From assembly GCA_012520375.1 (NCBI GenBank), contig JAAYOH010000034.1, positions 1 through 33,691 of the forward strand: a DNA stretch of 33,691 nucleotides, given 5' to 3'. The stretch is from Clostridiales bacterium (GTDB lineage Bacteria; Bacillota; Clostridia; Christensenellales; Aristaeellaceae). Made by a program: the position numbers and the translations under genes. Positions 7,950 to 21,827 of this stretch are shown one piece after another (the stretch's first letter is position 1; every line of letters starts with the position of its first letter). A model generated the notes under the pieces. The model had not been told where the DNA came from. It did no database searches and worked only from the letters and a program-made list of their open reading frames with translations.

Positions 7950-9200
7950 TTATTCTCCGTTTTCCGCGCCGATTTGCCGATATGCTGCGTTCAAAACCGT
8001 TTCCAGGGGCACATCGCTTGCCCGCGCGGCCTGCGCCGCGTCCTCGTACTCGCACTTGCGTTTGAACACGTCGGCCCCATGCGCTTCCTTGATGCGGACA
8101 GGCCCGTAGGGGGTCTCCACCCTGCGCATATTCCGGGCGAGCGCAAAGCGGCGACATGCCGTTTGTCGTACGCCCAGCGTGGTCGTATGCCGGAACAGAA
8201 GCTGCGTGAGGCGATTTGCGTCGCCCGGCAAGCTGATGCAGGTCAGCAACACGCCGGGACGAGACTTCTTCATCCCGATGGGGGCGGTGTAGACGTCCCG
8301 GGCGCCGGCGGCTAAAAGGGCCTCCATGGCAAAGCCGATGGCCTCCGGCGTCATATCGTCCAGGCTGCACGAGAGTTCGACGATTTCTTCCGGGGCGATC
8401 TCCGCTTCACCCAGGTAGGTCCGCACACAGTTGGCCGCCTCGAAATCCTTCTTCCCCATGCCGTAGCCGATCCTCTCCACGCGCATGAGGGGCATAGGGC
8501 CGAAATCGTCCGCGAAATGCCGGAGCAGCGCCGCGCCCGTGGGCGTGCACAGTTCCCCGCGCACCGCGCCGCCATAGACAGGCACGCCTTGCAGGATATG
8601 CGCCGTGGCGGGCGCGGGCACCGGCAGGATGCCATGGGCACAGCGAACCTGCCCGCTGCCCACGTGTATGGGGGAAACGATGACGCGATCCGGCGCGATT
8701 TTTTCCATCAGAAGGCATACGCCCACAATGTCAGCCACGGCATCGAGGGTCCCGACCTCGTGAAAGTGAACCTCCTCCACGGGACGCCCATGCACCCGGC
8801 TCTCCGCTTCCGCGATGAGCCCGTAGACGGAAAGCGCGTCCGATTTGACCTTGTCGCTTATGGGCATGGAAGCGATCAAGGCGCGGATGTCTTCAAAACC
8901 GGCATGGTGGTGCGTATGGCCGTGCTCATGGTCGTGCTCATGGTTATGTTCGTGGCTGTGTCCATGGCCATGCTCGTGTGCGTCGACGGATCCTTCCTCC
9001 CGGCCGTGGATGCGAACCGACACATACGTTCCCGTAATGCCGCATTTGACCGAGGGGATCGCCTCAACGTGGACGCCCGACAACCCCAGGGCGTTTATCT
9101 TGTGGAGAAAGTCCCCCTTATCCTCACACAATTCCAGCAGCGCCGCCGTCAGCATGTCGCCGGCTGCGCCCATGTTGCATTCGATATACAGCGTTTTCAT
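7950..9200 (-). CDS. larC: Nickel insertion protein LarC (NPN cofactor biosynthesis)
   Basis: LarC inserts nickel, in a CTP-dependent reaction, into the pincer nucleotide made by LarB and LarE. The protein is 416 aa in one uninterrupted frame; in Lactiplantibacillus plantarum the gene is split into larC1/larC2 and needs a frameshift, which is not the case here. The N-terminus MKTLYIECNMGAAGDM is the LarC/DUF111 signature. Residues 75–99 form a striking tract with 14 histidines at nearly every second position, likely metal binding. Further conserved pieces are VHFHEVGTLDAVADIVG, HGILPVPAPAT, CTPTGAALL and the C-terminal EEIVELSCSLDDMTPE. It overlaps larB by 4 bases and is the last gene of the block. 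Confidence 0.95.
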   Translation of the reverse strand: MKTLYIECNMGAAGDMLTAALLELCEDKGDFLHKINALGLSGVHVEAIPSVKCGITGTYVSVRIHGREEGSVDAHEHGHGHSHEHNHEHDHEHGHTHHHAGFEDIRALIASMPISDKVKSDALSVYGLIAEAESRVHGRPVEEVHFHEVGTLDAVADIVGVCLLMEKIAPDRVIVSPIHVGSGQVRCAHGILPVPAPATAHILQGVPVYGGAVRGELCTPTGAALLRHFADDFGPMPLMRVERIGYGMGKKDFEAANCVRTYLGEAEIAPEEIVELSCSLDDMTPEAIGFAMEALLAAGARDVYTAPIGMKKSRPGVLLTCISLPGDANRLTQLLFRHTTTLGVRQTACRRFALARNMRRVETPYGPVRIKEAHGADVFKRKCEYEDAAQAARASDVPLETVLNAAYRQIGAENGE

Positions 9201-9952
9201 GTTTCCGTTCCTCCGATCTGGTTGATCATGTGGGCCAGGTATCCCGCGCCAAATCCATTGTCGATGTTGACCACGCTGACGCCGCTGGCACAGGAGTTGA
9301 GCATGGACAAGAGCGCGGACAATCCGCCGAAATTTCCTCCGTAGCCGACGCTGGTGGGCACGGCGATCACAGGGCTTTCCACAAGTCCGCCCACCACGCT
9401 TGCCAGAGCCCCCTCCATGCCCGCGATGGCCACGATCGCTTTCGCGCCCACCAGCAGATCCAACCGTGCCAACAACCGGTGCAGACCGGATACGCCCACG
9501 TCGTATAGCCGTTCCACGCGGCTGCCCAGCGCCTCGGCGGTGAGCGCCGCTTCTTCGGCCACCGGGATGTCGCTGGTCCCGCCGGTGACAACGGCGACGT
9601 AACTCTTCCCTCGCGGCGCGGGAGGGCTGCCTGCTATGCCTATACGCGAGCGTCCGTCGTAGATAATGGGCAATCCATTATCGCGCAGGTATGCGGCGGA
9701 TCCCGGCTCCATGCGCGTGATCAGCACCCGTTCTGCACCCTTTTCCAGGATGGCCCGCGCGATGCCCAGGATCTCTTCCGGCATCTTGCCCGCGCCGTAA
9801 ATCACTTCCGTGGCGCCCTGACGGATCGAGCGGTGATGATCCACCTTTGCGTAGCCCAAATCCTCGAAAGGCTGCGTTTTGAGCGCGGCGAGGGCCGCCT
9901 CAGGCGACATTTCGCCGCTCGCTACGCGGCGTAAAATCTCCCGTGTATCCAT
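9197..9952 (-). CDS. larB: Nicotinic acid adenine dinucleotide carboxylase/hydrolase LarB
   Basis: LarB carboxylates the pyridinium ring of nicotinic acid adenine dinucleotide and releases AMP, giving the dicarboxylated mononucleotide that LarE sulfurates. The C-terminal half is PurE-like: VVTGGTSDIPVAEEA, YDVGVSGLHRLL, AIVAIAGMEGALASVVGGL and PVIAVPTSVGYG. The N-terminal part has the expected FEDLGYAKVDHHRSIRQG. I use ATG 9952 (251 aa), because the AGGAA upstream is better spaced for it than for GTG 9955. The start overlaps the larE stop (TGATG) and the end overlaps larC (ATGA), so translation is probably coupled. Confidence 0.95.
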   Translation of the reverse strand: MDTREILRRVASGEMSPEAALAALKTQPFEDLGYAKVDHHRSIRQGATEVIYGAGKMPEEILGIARAILEKGAERVLITRMEPGSAAYLRDNGLPIIYDGRSRIGIAGSPPAPRGKSYVAVVTGGTSDIPVAEEAALTAEALGSRVERLYDVGVSGLHRLLARLDLLVGAKAIVAIAGMEGALASVVGGLVESPVIAVPTSVGYGGNFGGLSALLSMLNSCASGVSVVNIDNGFGAGYLAHMINQIGGTET

Positions 9953-10716
9953 CACGCATTCCTCGCCTTCAAATCCAGGAATACCGCCTCGTAGTCGCCC
10001 AGCGCACGGCAGACTTCATCACGATGCGCAAGCAACTTTGGCATCTGCTCCCGAGATACCTGTAGGCGCGCGGCGTTGCCATAGAGCCGTACGCGAAAAT
10101 CCCGAAATCCCATCTGCGCCAGCGCGTCCTCGGCCAGTTCCGTAAGCGACAGATTTTTGGAAGTGATCTCTATGCCCGTCGGAATGCGCGTCGCCAGACA
10201 GGCGTAAGCGGGCTTATCCCAAGTGAAAAGCCCTGCCTCTTTTGAAAGGCGACGGATTTCATGCTTGGTCAACCCAGCCTCCCGCAGCGGCGAGCAAACG
10301 CCCATTTCGCGCAGCGCACGCATACCGGGGCGGTCGCCCACGTCGTCCGAGGCGTTGCTGCCATCGGCGACGAATGCATGGCCGTCCTCTTTGGCCGCCT
10401 CGAGAACACAGGACAAGAGCGCGCGTTTGCAGTGATAGCAGCGATCCTCCGGGTTTTTGCGCACCCTCTCCACGCCCAGTATATCGAAGGGGATCTCCTT
10501 CAGTTCTACGCCCAGCTCCTGCGCCAGACGGCGCGCGTCGCGCAACTCGAATCCAGGCTGGAAAGCCGTCTTGACGAAATAGGGCGTTACCACACAGCCG
10601 GAGCGCAGCGCCGCATAGAGCAGGTATGCCGAATCCACACCACCGGAAAAGGCCAGCCCCATGCGGGGCAGGTCCTTTAATCTTTCATACAGGCGCGCAT
10701 CGGATGATTTTTCCAT
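9952..10716 (-). CDS. larE: ATP-dependent sulfur transferase LarE
   Basis: LarE adenylates a carboxylate of the LarB product and donates sulfur to it, twice per cofactor. The protein is 254 aa. A PP-loop SGGVDSA (24–30) binds ATP. CYHC (93–96) lies in the usual position. Cys173 in YACLATRIPTG corresponds to the region holding the sacrificial cysteine (Cys176) of L. plantarum LarE. No further cysteine follows it, which fits the sacrificial type rather than the iron-sulfur type, though this is inference. A GGGAG sits upstream of the ATG. The gene follows the second permease gene after 67 bases, which contain a possible extended -10 promoter. Confidence 0.95.
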   Translation of the reverse strand: MEKSSDARLYERLKDLPRMGLAFSGGVDSAYLLYAALRSGCVVTPYFVKTAFQPGFELRDARRLAQELGVELKEIPFDILGVERVRKNPEDRCYHCKRALLSCVLEAAKEDGHAFVADGSNASDDVGDRPGMRALREMGVCSPLREAGLTKHEIRRLSKEAGLFTWDKPAYACLATRIPTGIEITSKNLSLTELAEDALAQMGFRDFRVRLYGNAARLQVSREQMPKLLAHRDEVCRALGDYEAVFLDLKARNA

Positions 10717-10783: not shown

Positions 10784-11818
10784 TCAAACCACTTTTTTTC
10801 GCAGCATCCATAAAAAGGCAGGGCCGCCCACCAGCGCCGTGACGATGCCCACCGACAGTTCCTCCGGTGCGAAAAGCATGCGGGCTGCCACATCGCACCA
10901 GAGAACGAACACGCCGCCCATCAGCGCGGCTACGGGAAACACGCGCCGGTGGTCGCTTCCTACCAGCATCCGCGCGACGTGCGGTGCGATCAGCCCGACA
11001 AAGCCGATGCCGCCGCTGACCGAAACCGTGACGCCGATGATGCCTGAAGTCGCCAACATGACCCCTTTTTGCATCCGCGAAACCGATACGCCCAGCGTCA
11101 GCGCGGTCTCATCTCCGCATACAAGCGCGTTGAGTGAGCGAAACCGTAGGGCTAAAAGCAGGGCGCAAACGATCATCAGCAGGATCGGCCAGCCCATATA
11201 CGCCCAGCGGGAGCCTGCCAGTCCGCCCTGCGTCCAAAAACCAGACGTGCTGTGCAAAAAGACCTGTGGGTTGGTCAGTGCCACCACCTTCACCACCGCT
11301 TTGGTGAACAGGGATAGGGCGATCCCCCCCAGCAGCAACTGGTCGATGTTCATGCGTCCGCGATGCAAGGAATAGAAATAGACACACAGCATGGACAGCG
11401 CAGCGCCGATGCAGCCGTTGACCGCGTTTTGGTATACGCCCATAAAGGAAAAGAGGCCGGTAATAATGCCCACCGATGCAAAGGCCGCTGCGCCGTAGGA
11501 CACGCCCAGTATATACGGATCCGCCAATTCGTTGCGCACGAGCGTCTGCATCGATACACCGCTGAAGGCCAACGCACAGCCCACGCAAAATCCAAGCAGA
11601 ACGCGGGGCAGCCTGGTGAGCATGACGATGGCATATTCTGTCTGCGTCCAGTCCGTTTGAAACCTTTCACTGAAGCCCGGCAGATTGCTCAGGATGATAC
11701 GCGCCACCGTCCCGGGGTTGATGAACACCGGACCGATGCCTACGCACAGGACCAGGCTGGTTACCGAGGCCACGCTCAACGCGAGAACCAGTGCGGCGGC
11801 GCGGCGTTTGCGTTGCAT
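10784..11818 (-). CDS. FecCD-family ABC transporter permease (second permease)
   Basis: Membrane subunit of an importer for a metal chelate, cobalamin or similar ligand. The protein has 344 aa with about nine to ten hydrophobic segments, as usual for BtuC/FecCD. Typical runs are FINPGTVARI, LPRVLLGFCVGCALAFSGVSMQ, NELADPYILGVSYGAA, GGIGFVGLIAPHVARMLVGSDHR and PEELSVGIVTALVGGPAFLWML; these match the ATPase-contacting loop and C-terminus of the family. AGGAGG precedes the ATG. It is paired with a different permease encoded at 13594–14646, so the channel is probably a heterodimer. It ends 67 bases before larE in the same direction. The substrate cannot be told from sequence alone. Confidence 0.9.
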   Translation of the reverse strand: MQRKRRAAALVLALSVASVTSLVLCVGIGPVFINPGTVARIILSNLPGFSERFQTDWTQTEYAIVMLTRLPRVLLGFCVGCALAFSGVSMQTLVRNELADPYILGVSYGAAAFASVGIITGLFSFMGVYQNAVNGCIGAALSMLCVYFYSLHRGRMNIDQLLLGGIALSLFTKAVVKVVALTNPQVFLHSTSGFWTQGGLAGSRWAYMGWPILLMIVCALLLALRFRSLNALVCGDETALTLGVSVSRMQKGVMLATSGIIGVTVSVSGGIGFVGLIAPHVARMLVGSDHRRVFPVAALMGGVFVLWCDVAARMLFAPEELSVGIVTALVGGPAFLWMLRKKVV

Positions 11819-11886: not shown

Positions 11887-12810
11887 TCAGAAGAGTTCCG
11901 GATACAGGCCGCGGGCGACGACCTCCACACAGTCAGCCGTGCGTGAACCGGGGAACGCGTTCTCCAGGGGCAACACGACGATGCGGTCCTTCTGCACGCA
12001 ATCCAGCTGGGAGAGGATCGGGTCGCCTTTGATGGCGGCGATCTTCTCTTCGGCGGTTGGTTTGTCGTAGTCATGCACGACGATCACATCCGGTTGCTGA
12101 TGGAGGATTTCTTCCAGTGAGACGCCGATCCACGCTTTTTCCAGGTTGGCGAAAACGTTCACGCCGCCTGCGAGGGCGATCAGCTCGGTTTCGATGTTGG
12201 GACCGCCTGCCGTGTACACGCCGCTGCCGGTATCCGAGTCATAACAGAACACCTTCAAGGGTTCCTTGCCTTCGACGGCGGCGGTCACCGCGTCGATGCG
12301 CGCCTGTTGGTCGGCGATAAAACGCTCCGCCTCCTCAGAAACGCCGAATATGCGGCCGATGTCGCGGATCTCTGCGAATATGGCCTCGACGCTGGCGGCA
12401 GAGTTGGCGTATGTGACAACGCCGTATTCTTCAAGCGCTTCGGCGGTGAAATCGCCCTCGAATACCCAGTCGATTGCATAGAGGAAATCCGCGCCGCTGC
12501 CCACGACTGCTTCAAGGGTGGGATAGCCGAAGGTCAGTTCGGGGATCTTGTCGTAGGCGTCCTTGTACACGTCCAGGGGGGCTTGTGCGTGATTGTCGCA
12601 GGAATTGCCGATGACGTAGTCCGCAAGGCCCAGTGCGATGAACAACTCGGTACAGTTGGGGCCCGCGGTGATCACCTTCTCCGGGCGCTTGGTCAACACA
12701 ATTTCGCGGCCGTAGTTGTCATAGGTCTGTGGGAAATCCCCTTGCGCCAGCGCGGCGCAGTTGCCCAGCAGGGCGCCGACGAGGAATAGGGCGAGAATGA
12801 TCTTCTTCAT
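11887..12810 (-). CDS. Substrate-binding protein of the FecCD-type ABC importer
   Basis: Extracytoplasmic binding protein of the BtuF/FhuD/TroA-like fold, 307 aa. Residues 1–23 are a signal peptide ending in ALAQ; a cysteine lies at 18 (LGNC), but this is a poor lipobox, so it is unclear whether the protein is lipidated. Family features are RPEKVITAGPNCTELFIALGL, GYPTLEAVVGSGADFL, the long linking helix at about 145–175, and GGPNIETELIALAGGVNVF followed by ISLEEIL-type and PDVIVVHDY segments. It overlaps the ATPase gene by 4 bases. It determines the ligand; nickel or a nickel complex is inferred from the larEBC neighbours, while cobalamin, haem or siderophores cannot be excluded. Confidence 0.88.
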   Translation of the reverse strand: MKKIILALFLVGALLGNCAALAQGDFPQTYDNYGREIVLTKRPEKVITAGPNCTELFIALGLADYVIGNSCDNHAQAPLDVYKDAYDKIPELTFGYPTLEAVVGSGADFLYAIDWVFEGDFTAEALEEYGVVTYANSAASVEAIFAEIRDIGRIFGVSEEAERFIADQQARIDAVTAAVEGKEPLKVFCYDSDTGSGVYTAGGPNIETELIALAGGVNVFANLEKAWIGVSLEEILHQQPDVIVVHDYDKPTAEEKIAAIKGDPILSQLDCVQKDRIVVLPLENAFPGSRTADCVEVVARGLYPELF

Positions 12811-13601
12811 GGTGACGTTCCCTCCGTTTGTATGGTATTTGGTCTATAGAGAATGCTTGTTTTCCCCGTGAAAGGAGAAATCGAAACATTGCACACCACA
12901 TGAAATACGGCACGAATGCGCTCGCTCGTGAGCATATCCTCCGGGGGCCCGTGAGCCAATATGCTTTGATCGTCCAGCACGTAGATTTCGGTGCAAAACA
13001 GCGCTGCCAGATTCAAGTCGTGAATGGCTGCGAGCACGGTTTTCCCCGAAGCGGCCAACGCCTCGAATATCTGCAATTGGAAGCTGATGTCCAGGTGGTT
13101 GGTGGGCTCATCGAGAATCAGCAGATCCGTCTGCTGGGCAAAAGCCCGCGCGATCAGTACGCGCTGCTTTTCGCCGCCGGAGAGTTGCGAAAAGTCCCGT
13201 TGCGCCAGTTCTGCGACGCCCAGCGCTTCCATGGCCTCGTCTACCGCCCTCGCGTCTTCGGGGGTATCCGGCTCGAGGAGCCGCTTATACGGCGTGCGCC
13301 CCATGGAGACGATTTCCCGGACGGTGAATCGGAATGGGACCGTGTTTTCCTGGCCGACGACAGCCATTTTTTGCGCGACGGTTCTGCGCCGCAAAGTGCG
13401 GATATCGTCGCCGTCGAGGAGTATTTTTCCTCGGCCGGGGGTAAGGGCTCCGTAGATATTTTTGAGGATGGTGGACTTCCCGCTGCCATTGGGGCCGATG
13501 ATCCCCACAAACGCGCCCGCCCGGACCCGAAGGCTTATATCCTCCAAAACGCGCCGCGCACCGTAGGAATAGGACAGCCGTTCCACGACGATTCTATCCA
13601 T
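12807..13601 (-). CDS. ABC transporter ATP-binding protein (FepC/BtuD type)
   Basis: Cytoplasmic ATPase that powers the importer; 264 aa. Walker A GPNGSGKST (36–44), Q-loop around VVGQENTVPF, signature LSGGEKQR (140–147), Walker B LLILDEPTNHLD (D164, E165) and the switch His in AAIHDLNLA are all intact. It overlaps the upstream permease gene by 8 bases and the downstream binding-protein gene by 4, so the products are translated in a coupled way. The C-terminal extension after about residue 225 is less typical and not assigned. Confidence 0.93.
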   Translation of the reverse strand: MDRIVVERLSYSYGARRVLEDISLRVRAGAFVGIIGPNGSGKSTILKNIYGALTPGRGKILLDGDDIRTLRRRTVAQKMAVVGQENTVPFRFTVREIVSMGRTPYKRLLEPDTPEDARAVDEAMEALGVAELAQRDFSQLSGGEKQRVLIARAFAQQTDLLILDEPTNHLDISFQLQIFEALAASGKTVLAAIHDLNLAALFCTEIYVLDDQSILAHGPPEDMLTSERIRAVFHVVCNVSISPFTGKTSILYRPNTIQTEGTSP

Positions 13602-14646
13602 TCAAACACGTCCTCTCTCCGGGGCGCTTTTTCAAGATCACCAGGAAAAACGGAGCGCCGATCAGCGCGGTCAACAGGCCCACGGGGATTTCTTCCGGCG
13701 CTGCGATCATACGCGCCGCCACGTCGGCCCATACGACCAATATGCCGCCCAGAAGCGCGCTCAGGGGCAATACCCGCTTATGGCTTGACCCCGCCAGGAT
13801 GCGGCTTAGATGGGGGACGATCATGCCGATAAAGCCGACAGACCCGCTGACGGAAATCGCTACTCCTGCCAGCAGCGAGGACAGAAGCATCAGGGCCTGC
13901 TGCGTCGAACGCACCGAAACGCCCAACGAGCCGGCCGCCTCCTCGCCCATAACCAGTACGTCCAGGGCGCGGTGCTGCGCCATAAGGCAGGTCCCGCACA
14001 GGAGCATGACGGCGCCGGGCAGCGCCAGCGTTTCCCATTTGGCCCCTGCGAGGCTGCCGGAGAGCCAGAAACTCACGTTGTAGACGGAGAAGGCGTTGGG
14101 TGCTGAGACGGCGACAAAGCTGGTGACCGCGTCCATGATCATCGCCACGGCGACGCCCGAGAGCAGCATGCGCGTGATGCTGATGCGGCCGTTGACATGC
14201 GCCATGGCGAAGACGAATACGATGGAGAAAAGCGCGCCGAGAAAGGCGCTCAAAGAAAGGGCGTACCTTCCGAAAAAGGAGAACACGCCAAATACCATGA
14301 ACAGCGAGGCGGTTGCCGACGCCCCGGAGGAAACGCCCAGGATAAACGGATCAGCCAGCTTGTTGCGCACCAATGCCTGCATGGCAACACCACATATGCC
14401 AAGCGCGGACCCAATGATCAGCCCCAGGAGTACGCGGGGGATCCGCAGTTTCCAGATCATGTTGAATTCAAGTCGGCTGGGTTCCTGGGCGAGTTCGCGC
14501 GCAAACGGGATCCGGCTGAACACAACGCGCAGCACCGTGCCGGGCGAGAAGGACATCGCGCCCAACCCGGTGGCGAAAAATGCGCCGATCAGCGCCAGAA
14601 GCGCCCCCGCCAGCATCCATTTTTTATAGGACATCGGTTGTTTCAC
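13594..14646 (-). CDS. FecCD-family ABC transporter permease (first permease)
   Basis: First gene of the importer–lar block. I place the start at GTG 14646: AGGAGGAGG at 14660–14652 is correctly spaced for it, whereas in-frame ATGs at 14673 and 14664 lie upstream of that ribosome binding site. ATG 14634 is an alternative. The protein is about 350 aa with nine to ten hydrophobic segments. Family runs include LRIPRVLLGLIIGSALGICG, NKLADPFILGVSSGASA, GSVGFIGMIVPHLSRILAGS and PEEIPVGLLTALIGAPFFL. It differs clearly from the second permease, so the two are likely partners rather than a recent duplication. Confidence 0.9.
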   Translation of the reverse strand: MKQPMSYKKWMLAGALLALIGAFFATGLGAMSFSPGTVLRVVFSRIPFARELAQEPSRLEFNMIWKLRIPRVLLGLIIGSALGICGVAMQALVRNKLADPFILGVSSGASATASLFMVFGVFSFFGRYALSLSAFLGALFSIVFVFAMAHVNGRISITRMLLSGVAVAMIMDAVTSFVAVSAPNAFSVYNVSFWLSGSLAGAKWETLALPGAVMLLCGTCLMAQHRALDVLVMGEEAAGSLGVSVRSTQQALMLLSSLLAGVAISVSGSVGFIGMIVPHLSRILAGSSHKRVLPLSALLGGILVVWADVAARMIAAPEEIPVGLLTALIGAPFFLVILKKRPGERTCLNG

Positions 14647-14800
14647 ATCCGCCTCCTCCTGCATGGATCCCATCTACAAAAAAACGCCATGAATGCGCGC
14701 ACCCTGAGTGCGAAGACGCCTTCATGACGATTGAATAAAACCTCTATGGTACTTCCTTGTCCGGCTTCTGCCGGGCAGTAACCGCTTCTTGCGGCTCCCA
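14647..14800 (-). promoter_or_regulatory. Structured leader of the importer–lar operon, candidate riboswitch or attenuator
   Basis: The transcript should start near 14800 and run about 150 nt to the first start codon. Its first 50 nt contain two neighbouring hairpins, CCGC-AAGAA-GCGG and CCGGC-AGAA-GCCGG; GGTTACT and AGTACC can enclose the second one. About 25 nt later comes a strong intrinsic terminator (14678–14729), then the ribosome binding site. This layout fits ligand-controlled termination. I do not recognise any known riboswitch class; the GGA/ACTG pieces recall cobalamin riboswitches, but the core of that class is missing. Confidence 0.45.
14678..14729 (-). terminator. Intrinsic terminator inside the operon leader
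   Basis: CGTCATGAA (14729–14721) pairs with TTCATGGCG (14693–14685; one G·T pair). Inside, GCG pairs with CGC and CGCAC with GTGCG. Seven T residues follow at once (14684–14678). It sits between promoter and first gene, where it must be bypassed for expression. Confidence 0.85.
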
Positions 14801-14805
14801 ATAAA

Positions 14806-14834
14806 ACTGTATCATCGCGCCACCCGTATGTCAA
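14806..14834 (-). promoter_or_regulatory. Promoter of the importer–lar operon
   Basis: TTGACA (14834–14829), 17 bases, then TACAGT (14811–14806), pointing to the permease gene about 160 bases downstream. Confidence 0.75.
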
Positions 14835-14898
14835 GTTAAATCTCTTACGGACTGTTCCCGGCGCTGCATGTTTTCGTTTGGCGGAACAGGTCCCACAC

Positions 14899-14949
14899 GG
14901 ATCCTTTTGATCCTTGCCTGATGGGATATGGCAAGGTCCAAAAGGATCC
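14899..14949. repeat. 20-base imperfect inverted repeat in the operon–cysS gap
   Basis: Left arm GGATCCTTTTGATCCTTGCC (14899–14918) and right arm 14930–14949 pair as 11 + 7 bp around a 2×2 mismatch, with an 11-base loop. It lies between the importer promoter and the cysS terminator. Neither side has a T-run of the usual terminator kind. Confidence 0.65.
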
Positions 14950-14981
14950 AGGGGCAGGAACAGGGGAGAAGGGCGAAGAAA

Positions 14982-21560: not shown

Positions 21561-21580
21561 AAAAGCTTTTCGCAAATCAT

Positions 21581-21708
21581 CTTCTTTCATCCAGACTATA
21601 CTGTTGGTTTTGGAATTGCACCAAATCCTGCGTTGCCGCTCGCGGACTGTCACCGCCAATCGGGAATTCCCCCATGGACCCGCCACGGGAGTCACCCTGC
21701 CCTGAAGA
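21581..21708 (-). ncRNA. FMN riboswitch (RFN element)
   Basis: Minus-strand sequence carries the conserved RFN pieces in order: TCTTCAGGGCAGGGTGA, ATTCCCGATTGGCGGT, AGTCCGCGAGC, GGATTTGGTGCAATTCC and CAGTATAGTCTGGATGAAAG. FMN binding should favour the terminator at 21527–21560 and switch off ribU and the riboflavin kinase gene. Confidence 0.96.
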
Positions 21709-21827
21709 CACCGATATTCAGTTGCCCGAGGTAGTACACCCTATGTACTGCGTACAGTATACACCGCTCCCCGGAAGAATACAAGGGAAAAATGGATAAT
21801 AATCATCTTTTCTATGATTTTCCTGAT

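Follow-up and report, generated by a model that had tools for sequence, protein, structure and literature searches.

Several described RNA leaders bear comparison with the one reported here. The guanidine-II riboswitch consists of two ACGR tetraloop hairpins, its aptamers using two tiny and similar elements of this kind, while RAT, the target of Bgl/Sac antitermination, is one longer element that overlaps a terminator. According to the sections of the literature available to us, the targets of ANTAR-domain antiterminators carry six-nucleotide loops in which the first position is A and the fourth is G, and antitermination requires both the loop sequence and the stem structure (PMC8934654, PMC3369931). 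In the eut system of E. faecalis the linker measures 5-12 nt, and induction suffered when it was set to 3 or 14 nt, as described in the available part of that report (PMC3369931). In the Bgl/Sac systems, as far as the accessible text goes, a protein stabilises a hairpin that is mutually exclusive with the terminator (PMC4347634).

The stretch of DNA analysed here, referred to as the window, comprises 33,691 nucleotides of a Clostridiales bacterium (contig JAAYOH010000034.1). On its minus strand a leader at 14647-14811 precedes genes for a FecCD-type importer and for Lar proteins, which by their NCBIfam names are makers of the nickel-pincer cofactor; the whole is predicted to form a nickel importer and nickel-cofactor operon (Table 1).

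Table 1. Features of the leader and the operon in the window, in order of transcription.
Feature	Position	Strand	Sequence, basis or remark
Promoter	14834-14806	minus	TTGACA-17-TACAGT, TG ahead of the second hexamer; 10/12 matches
H1 hairpin	14796-14780	minus	AGCCGC[AAGAA]GCGGTT; folding, loop scan; covariation in homologues
H2 hairpin	14774-14761	minus	CCGGC[AGAA]GCCGG; folding, loop scan; covariation in homologues
H3 hairpin, proposed antiterminator	14729-14717	minus	CGTC[ATGAA]GGCG; loop scan, energy comparison; covariation
Intrinsic terminator hairpin	14729-14685	minus	CGTCATGAA...TTCATGGCG; 5' arm holds the H3 loop and arms
Seven-T tract of terminator	14684-14678	minus	sequence
AGGAGG ribosome-binding site	14660-14655	minus	sequence
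FecCD-type ABC permease 1, first operon gene	13594..14646	minus	
ABC ATPase	12807..13601	minus	
Substrate-binding protein	11887..12810	minus	
FecCD-type ABC permease 2	10784..11818	minus	
larE	9952..10716	minus	TIGR00268 above cut-off
larB	9197..9955	minus	NF033503 above cut-off
larC	7950..9200	minus	TIGR00299 (larC1 part) and NF052512 (larC2 part), both above cut-off

The first-pass annotation of this DNA had described a clean promoter, two neighbouring hairpins with AAGAA and AGAA loops, a very strong terminator with seven T residues and an AGGAGG site, all of which are present; it was correct but incomplete, as it overlooked the third hairpin, H3. The promoter is the only promoter-like site between 14000 and 15500 (shuffle mean 0.4), and H1 begins 15 nt past the start of its -10 hexamer. 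The AGGAGG site is followed by an in-frame GTG (14646-14644), the likely start of permease 1, the frame of which is also open from an ATG at 14673, just behind the T tract. The 66-nt stretch containing the terminator folds at -23.0 kcal/mol (z -3.29; 1 of 200 shuffles equally good), and the 159-nt leader as a whole has a z of -3.32, equalled by none of 200 shuffles. A simple terminator scan did not list the 14729-14685 terminator, in our view because the rules of the scan accommodate neither the outer stem nor the long inner part of this hairpin. H3 has a loop of the same kind as H1 and sits within the 5' arm of the terminator, and the two structures are therefore mutually exclusive. The 80 nt holding H1, H2 and the linker on their own show a modest fold (z -1.92; 7 of 200 shuffles equally good); the window alone would therefore not settle the case, and it is the comparison of homologues that does so. 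Farther upstream, between cysS and the leader promoter, lies a long inverted repeat (14891-14955) without a T tract (-37.6 kcal/mol and z -5.41 for 14890-14962), which may be a repeat element or belong to the 3' end of cysS.

The first-pass annotation had also reported that cobalamin and NiCo riboswitch elements were absent, and had proposed a covariance-model search and a comparison of homologous leaders. In the window the only Rfam family above its cut-offs is RF00050, an FMN riboswitch elsewhere on the minus strand (21575-21713, 88.4 bits). With E-values up to 10 allowed around the leader, nothing overlaps 14647-14811, cobalamin and NiCo models included; the few permissive matches around leaders are far below their cut-offs, and the homologous leaders likewise gave no relevant match at permissive E-values. 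A cobalamin riboswitch (RF00174, 115.9 bits) was recognised at L087:2731-2921, ahead of a more distant FecCD permease, and the search therefore works on this kind of locus. That same riboswitch is the one observation in favour of reading the leader as a diverged representative of an established Rfam class, whether cobalamin, NiCo or some other, an interpretation that is almost certainly wrong given that neither the window leader nor its homologues match any such family at permissive E-values.

The importer is rare among the genomes searched. Counting the genome of the window each time, permease matches were found in 3 of 200 genomes of the family (E <= 1e-70), 4 of 396 of the order (E <= 1e-75), 4 of 391 of the class (E <= 1e-90) and 8 of 398 of the phylum (E <= 1e-100). 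Searches around single genomes gave 3 of 32 (G885), 2 of 70 (G837) and 1 of 6 (G778), and a repeat around G885 on the order gave 3 of 33 and nothing new. Once genomes with more distant permeases only were left out (G085, G289, G1195, G1307 and G1340), there remained 14 orthologues of permease 1 across the phylum, namely that of the window and those of G103, G433, G285, G837, G778, G885, G935, G934, G976, G1046, G1207, G1099 and G1280, the latter 13 being 52-64% identical to the permease of the window. Two cyanobacterial plasmid permeases of about 50% identity were also noted.

The leader is present before the importer in 12 of these 14 orthologues. Reading by eye of the upstream side in G976 showed no leader, and G1280 was left out of judgement, as its contig starts inside the upstream gene. 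In G1099 the leader sits ahead of a methyltransferase gene that precedes the permease, and G885 holds a second copy ahead of a separate, divergent larC gene, bringing the total to 13 leaders, all recognised by eye. TTGACA also stands ahead of the leaders of G103, G433, G285, G1046 and G1207. No such leader was seen upstream of the distant permeases L023, L031, L087, L088 and L089, a weak control, since four of the five directly follow another gene; L025, which lies inside the operon of the window, and L024, which ends 61 nt upstream of the match, were unusable as controls.

What remains constant among these leaders is the loops, whereas linkers and stems differ almost completely. ANGAA pentaloop hairpins of at least four pairs number 19 in the 13 leaders (13 ATGAA, three AAGAA and three ACGAA), against a mean of 0.29 and a maximum of 3 in 1000 dinucleotide shuffles. 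Hairpins with AGAA or TGAA tetraloops number 10 where 0.63 are expected, a count reached in none of 400 shuffles; six are H2, two are H1 (G103 and G778) and two are terminator tips. The strict H1 pentaloop occurs in 11 of the 13 leaders, G103 and G778 having instead AGAA with a U-A or A-U closing pair; a strict ANGAA H3 occurs in eight, those without it being the leaders of G103, G433, G285, G837 and G1207. H2 was not recognised in G1207 and G1099. Since the first leaders served to define the motif, those read later (G935, G934, G1046, G1207 and G1099) provide the fairer tests.

The covarying pairs that the first-pass annotation had suggested looking for are found in the stems. When H1 and H2 are aligned across nine leaders (alignment A2), all 10 pairs have changed on both sides and 82.2% of cells are paired, compared with 51.4% in shuffles, with two rows, L022 and L034, misregistered in H1 and counted as they stand; neither the pairing nor the covariation score was reached by any of 500 shuffles. 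H1 in the 11 leaders with the strict pentaloop (A7) is 98.2% paired (0 of 500 shuffles), and H3 in six distinct rows (A8) is 100% paired (3 of 500), values favoured by the choice of rows for having the hairpin, whereas the shuffles behind the loop counts cover all 13 leaders. A8 draws on the eight leaders with a strict H3, which give seven rows, six of them distinct, as G934 and G1046 share one. The number of pairs with two-sided changes is within chance in these two alignments, counts as high being obtained in 177 of 500 shuffles for H1 and 99 of 500 for H3. MAFFT alignments of the short hairpins (A3 and A4) were dropped because gaps were misplaced. Where H1 and H3 are both strict ANGAA hairpins, as in seven leaders, H1 starts 14-23 nt past the start of the -10 hexamer, which was chosen by eye, and H1 is therefore near the 5' end of the RNA. 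The distance from H1 to H3 in the same seven varies from 42 to 111 nt; H2 follows H1 closely, yet it lies clear of the terminator.

A small hairpin at the position of H3 overlaps the 5' arm of the terminator in all 13 leaders, five of these competing hairpins having been chosen by eye without the strict loop. Their loop is different in G433 and G285 and related in G837, G103 and G1207, and it is these five that fit a uniform model least well. The terminator region is predicted to be the more stable in every leader, at -13.9 to -32.6 kcal/mol against -2.1 to -7.6 for the competing hairpin (-22.9 against -2.2 in the window), in a comparison that weighs a short hairpin on its own against a more extended region and takes no account of folding during transcription. 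With the terminator so much the stabler, termination is the expected default, and something must hold H3 for read-through to occur. The exclusive hairpin and terminator, kept in homologues, are what characterises an antitermination leader acting at an intrinsic terminator, and we conclude that this is a real, conserved and uncatalogued member of that kind. The first-pass annotation had called it a terminator-type riboswitch; the evidence supports a terminator leader that is regulated and belongs to none of the Rfam families searched, and the word riboswitch, with the direct ligand sensing that it implies, is a possible label for it. Of the three outcomes named there as refuting its reading, two were put to the test, a confident Rfam match and a lack of covariation among homologues, and neither came about.

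On balance, we favour a default-off antitermination switch, read by an RNA-binding protein that is not of the ANTAR type and that answers nickel or cobalt or the Lar pathway. What this model infers is that a factor exists and that it is a protein, together with the signal and the way in which the operon responds to it. Transcription would start just before H1 and, judging from predicted stability, the terminator hairpin would by default stop RNA polymerase ahead of the importer genes. A factor recognising ANGAA hairpins, together with the related AGAA/TGAA loop of H2, would bind H1 as it emerges and next capture H3, the bearer of the same loop; with H3 held shut, the terminator would lose its 5' arm and the operon would be transcribed. 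The factor would most likely be an RNA-binding protein outside the ANTAR family, and its binding to RNA would be governed by nickel or cobalt status or by the Lar cofactor pathway. No candidate was identified, and no regulator was seen to recur beside the importers in the stretches read, a reading that was not systematic.

The nature of the signal is suggested by the genes around the leader. Within stretches of 5-15 kb, lar genes adjoin the leader-bearing importer in four of the 12 genomes: in the window, in G837 (larE, larB and larC all beside it) and in G885 and G935 (larC). In G103, larB and larC occur with permease 2 on another contig. With lar genes adjoining so few of the importers, it is the importer, not lar, that is the constant partner of the leader. 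In G1046, CbiM and CbiQ, cobalt transport parts by Pfam, lie upstream on the same strand. The leaderless orthologue in G976 has beside it a divergent gene of the metal-sensitive repressor family PF02583 (L097:4822-5175), the Pfam family containing CsoR and RcnR, and its protein has a histidine-rich N-terminus; here one metal control has apparently been substituted for another. These metal-linked neighbours make nickel or cobalt status the best guess for the signal. Two further recurrences were observed. A pair of ABC transporter genes lies downstream of the importer in G1046 and G778 (L095:4251-7741 and L040:7308-10833; Pfam was run on one gene per pair), a shared neighbourhood that may hint at which compound is imported. 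In G1099 (L094:5904-6452) and G1280 (L098) the importer is preceded by a methyltransferase-like gene, Pfam having been run on the G1099 copy.

The strongest competitor of the protein-read switch is a true riboswitch, in which the ANGAA loops themselves bind the ligand, be it Ni2+, Co2+ or an intermediate of the Lar cofactor. Purine N7 atoms can coordinate nickel, and through such atoms the loops might bind Ni2+ or Co2+, the H1 and H3 loops perhaps coming together. Invariant purine-rich loops carried on variable stems would suit this interpretation, as would the metal-linked gene context and the metal-sensitive repressor gene of the genome that has no leader. However, the leaders show no larger conserved fold, junction or linker, the wide range of H1-H3 distances is difficult to accommodate, and resemblance to guanidine-II does not extend to the loops, ACGR loops being not enriched (a single one against a shuffle mean of 0.20, a count reached in 71 of 400 shuffles). 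A riboswitch of this kind is a doubtful, though serious, alternative, and its boldest form, a new RNA class in which two or three tiny ANGAA hairpins directly bind nickel, cobalt or a nickel-pincer intermediate and switch the terminator free of protein, we consider unlikely. A protein factor seems likelier than direct sensing by the RNA because short repeated hairpins at loose spacing suit the reading of single hairpins.

If the reader is a protein, an ordinary ANTAR target must be considered, made up of two or three hairpins of which the last overlaps the terminator. The layout is that of the eut leaders, a free hairpin followed by one overlapping the terminator (PMC8934654, PMC3369931, in the parts available), and an ANTAR domain (PF03861, E <= 0.001) is encoded by six of the nine leader-bearing genomes tested, a set from which G1046, G1207 and G1099 were left out. 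Against this, hexaloops with A1 and G4 are not enriched (two seen, mean 2.58; 285 of 400 shuffles as high), and both such hairpins among the 13 leaders lie in G934. H1 and H3 lie 42-111 nt apart, compared with the 5-12 nt eut linker of E. faecalis given in the accessible text (PMC3369931). No domain at E <= 0.001 was found in G000, the genome of the window (95% complete), in G837 (93%) or in G934 (81%). On the grounds of loops, spacing and a protein not found in three of nine leader genomes, an ANTAR target was rejected as very improbable.

Attenuation without a dedicated sensor, either constitutive or through a leader peptide, fares no better in our estimation and is highly unlikely. An ATG falls within the H1 loop of seven of the 13 leaders and is missing from H1 in the remaining six. 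In G885 it opens a frame of 34 codons with its end in the H3 loop; across the seven leaders the frames vary from 4 to 34 codons and differ in sequence. As the frames are not conserved, the leader peptide was rejected, while constitutive attenuation leaves invariant loops on covarying stems unexplained.

How specific the motif is was examined with several descriptors. By DNA similarity, 39 of 60 genomes matched the leader at E <= 1, that of the window included; the recurrent short matches around H2, inspected at five loci, were set aside as apparently unrelated sequence. A tandem-hairpin descriptor applied to both strands of 50 loci and the window matched only leaders (11 rows from six distinct leaders) and missed four in the same loci, those of G103, G778 and G934 and the larC copy of G885. 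A stricter descriptor, an ANGAA hairpin overlapping a terminator with another ANGAA hairpin upstream, matched five distinct places in 468,301 bases (overlaps included), all of them leaders; it is specific but sees only five of the 13, and it assigns the window a spurious terminator arm. A covariance model of H1-H2 (R1), built from an alignment of six leaders (A5), scores these training leaders at 36.6-38.7 bits. Among the seven others it gives weak matches in two (18.3 bits for the G885 larC copy, 17.0 bits for L022) and misses L034, L045, L082, L083 and L084; the model is over-fitted. In nine whole genomes R1 found the six training sites strongly and at least 17 further matches (E 0.17-4.5); the leaders of G103, G778 and G934 and the G885 larC copy were not among the matches listed. 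The 17 further matches were read by eye, and none is followed by a leader-like H3 and terminator. One R1 match, L066 (G934:C156), lies outside any leader and resembles a terminator, consisting of one hairpin with 11 pairs, an ATGAA loop and T's behind it. A wider regulon of the leader is possible.

Within the open-licence PMC literature, as far as its available text extends, no RNA-based control of lar operons was found, and the accessible portions of PMC8632094, PMC11109978, PMC7583248, PMC5640608, PMC6311696, PMC9331361 and PMC11796402 make no mention of the leader element. If a protein reads the ANGAA loops, metal import would be under the control of an antiterminator that works on repeated hairpins, in parallel to the ANTAR proteins, and perhaps belongs to an undescribed family. 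If the RNA senses alone, the sensor would be very small, and nickel or the nickel-pincer pathway might be what it senses; such protein-free reading would amount to a minimal repeated-loop aptamer governing a nickel importer. In either case, the ANGAA loop motif offers a compact descriptor with which to find the rest of the family.

Compared with the systems described at the outset, the leader resembles the dual-hairpin antiterminators recognised by ANTAR proteins (the targets of EutV, NasR and AmiR), in which small hairpins with conserved loops likewise lie upstream of a terminator, the last hairpin overlaps it, as in all 13 leaders here, and stems matter as structure and loops as sequence. 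It differs from them in having ANGAA pentaloops or AGAA/TGAA tetraloops in place of hexaloops with A1 and G4, in having up to three hairpins, and in being present in three genomes where an ANTAR domain was not found. With guanidine-II (mini-ykkC) it has in common tiny tandem hairpins with near-identical loops and a variable linker, but it shows neither ACGR enrichment nor an Rfam match, is associated with metal-linked genes, and has a separate antiterminator hairpin bearing the same loop. Its resemblance to Bgl/Sac (RAT) antitermination lies in a hairpin that is exclusive with the terminator and, in the proposed model, would be held by a protein; unlike RAT, it has several short hairpins with near-identical loops. 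Finally, like the cobalamin riboswitches found before FecCD importers, it occupies the 5' leader position of a transporter of the same superfamily, but no cobalamin aptamer was found in the leaders.
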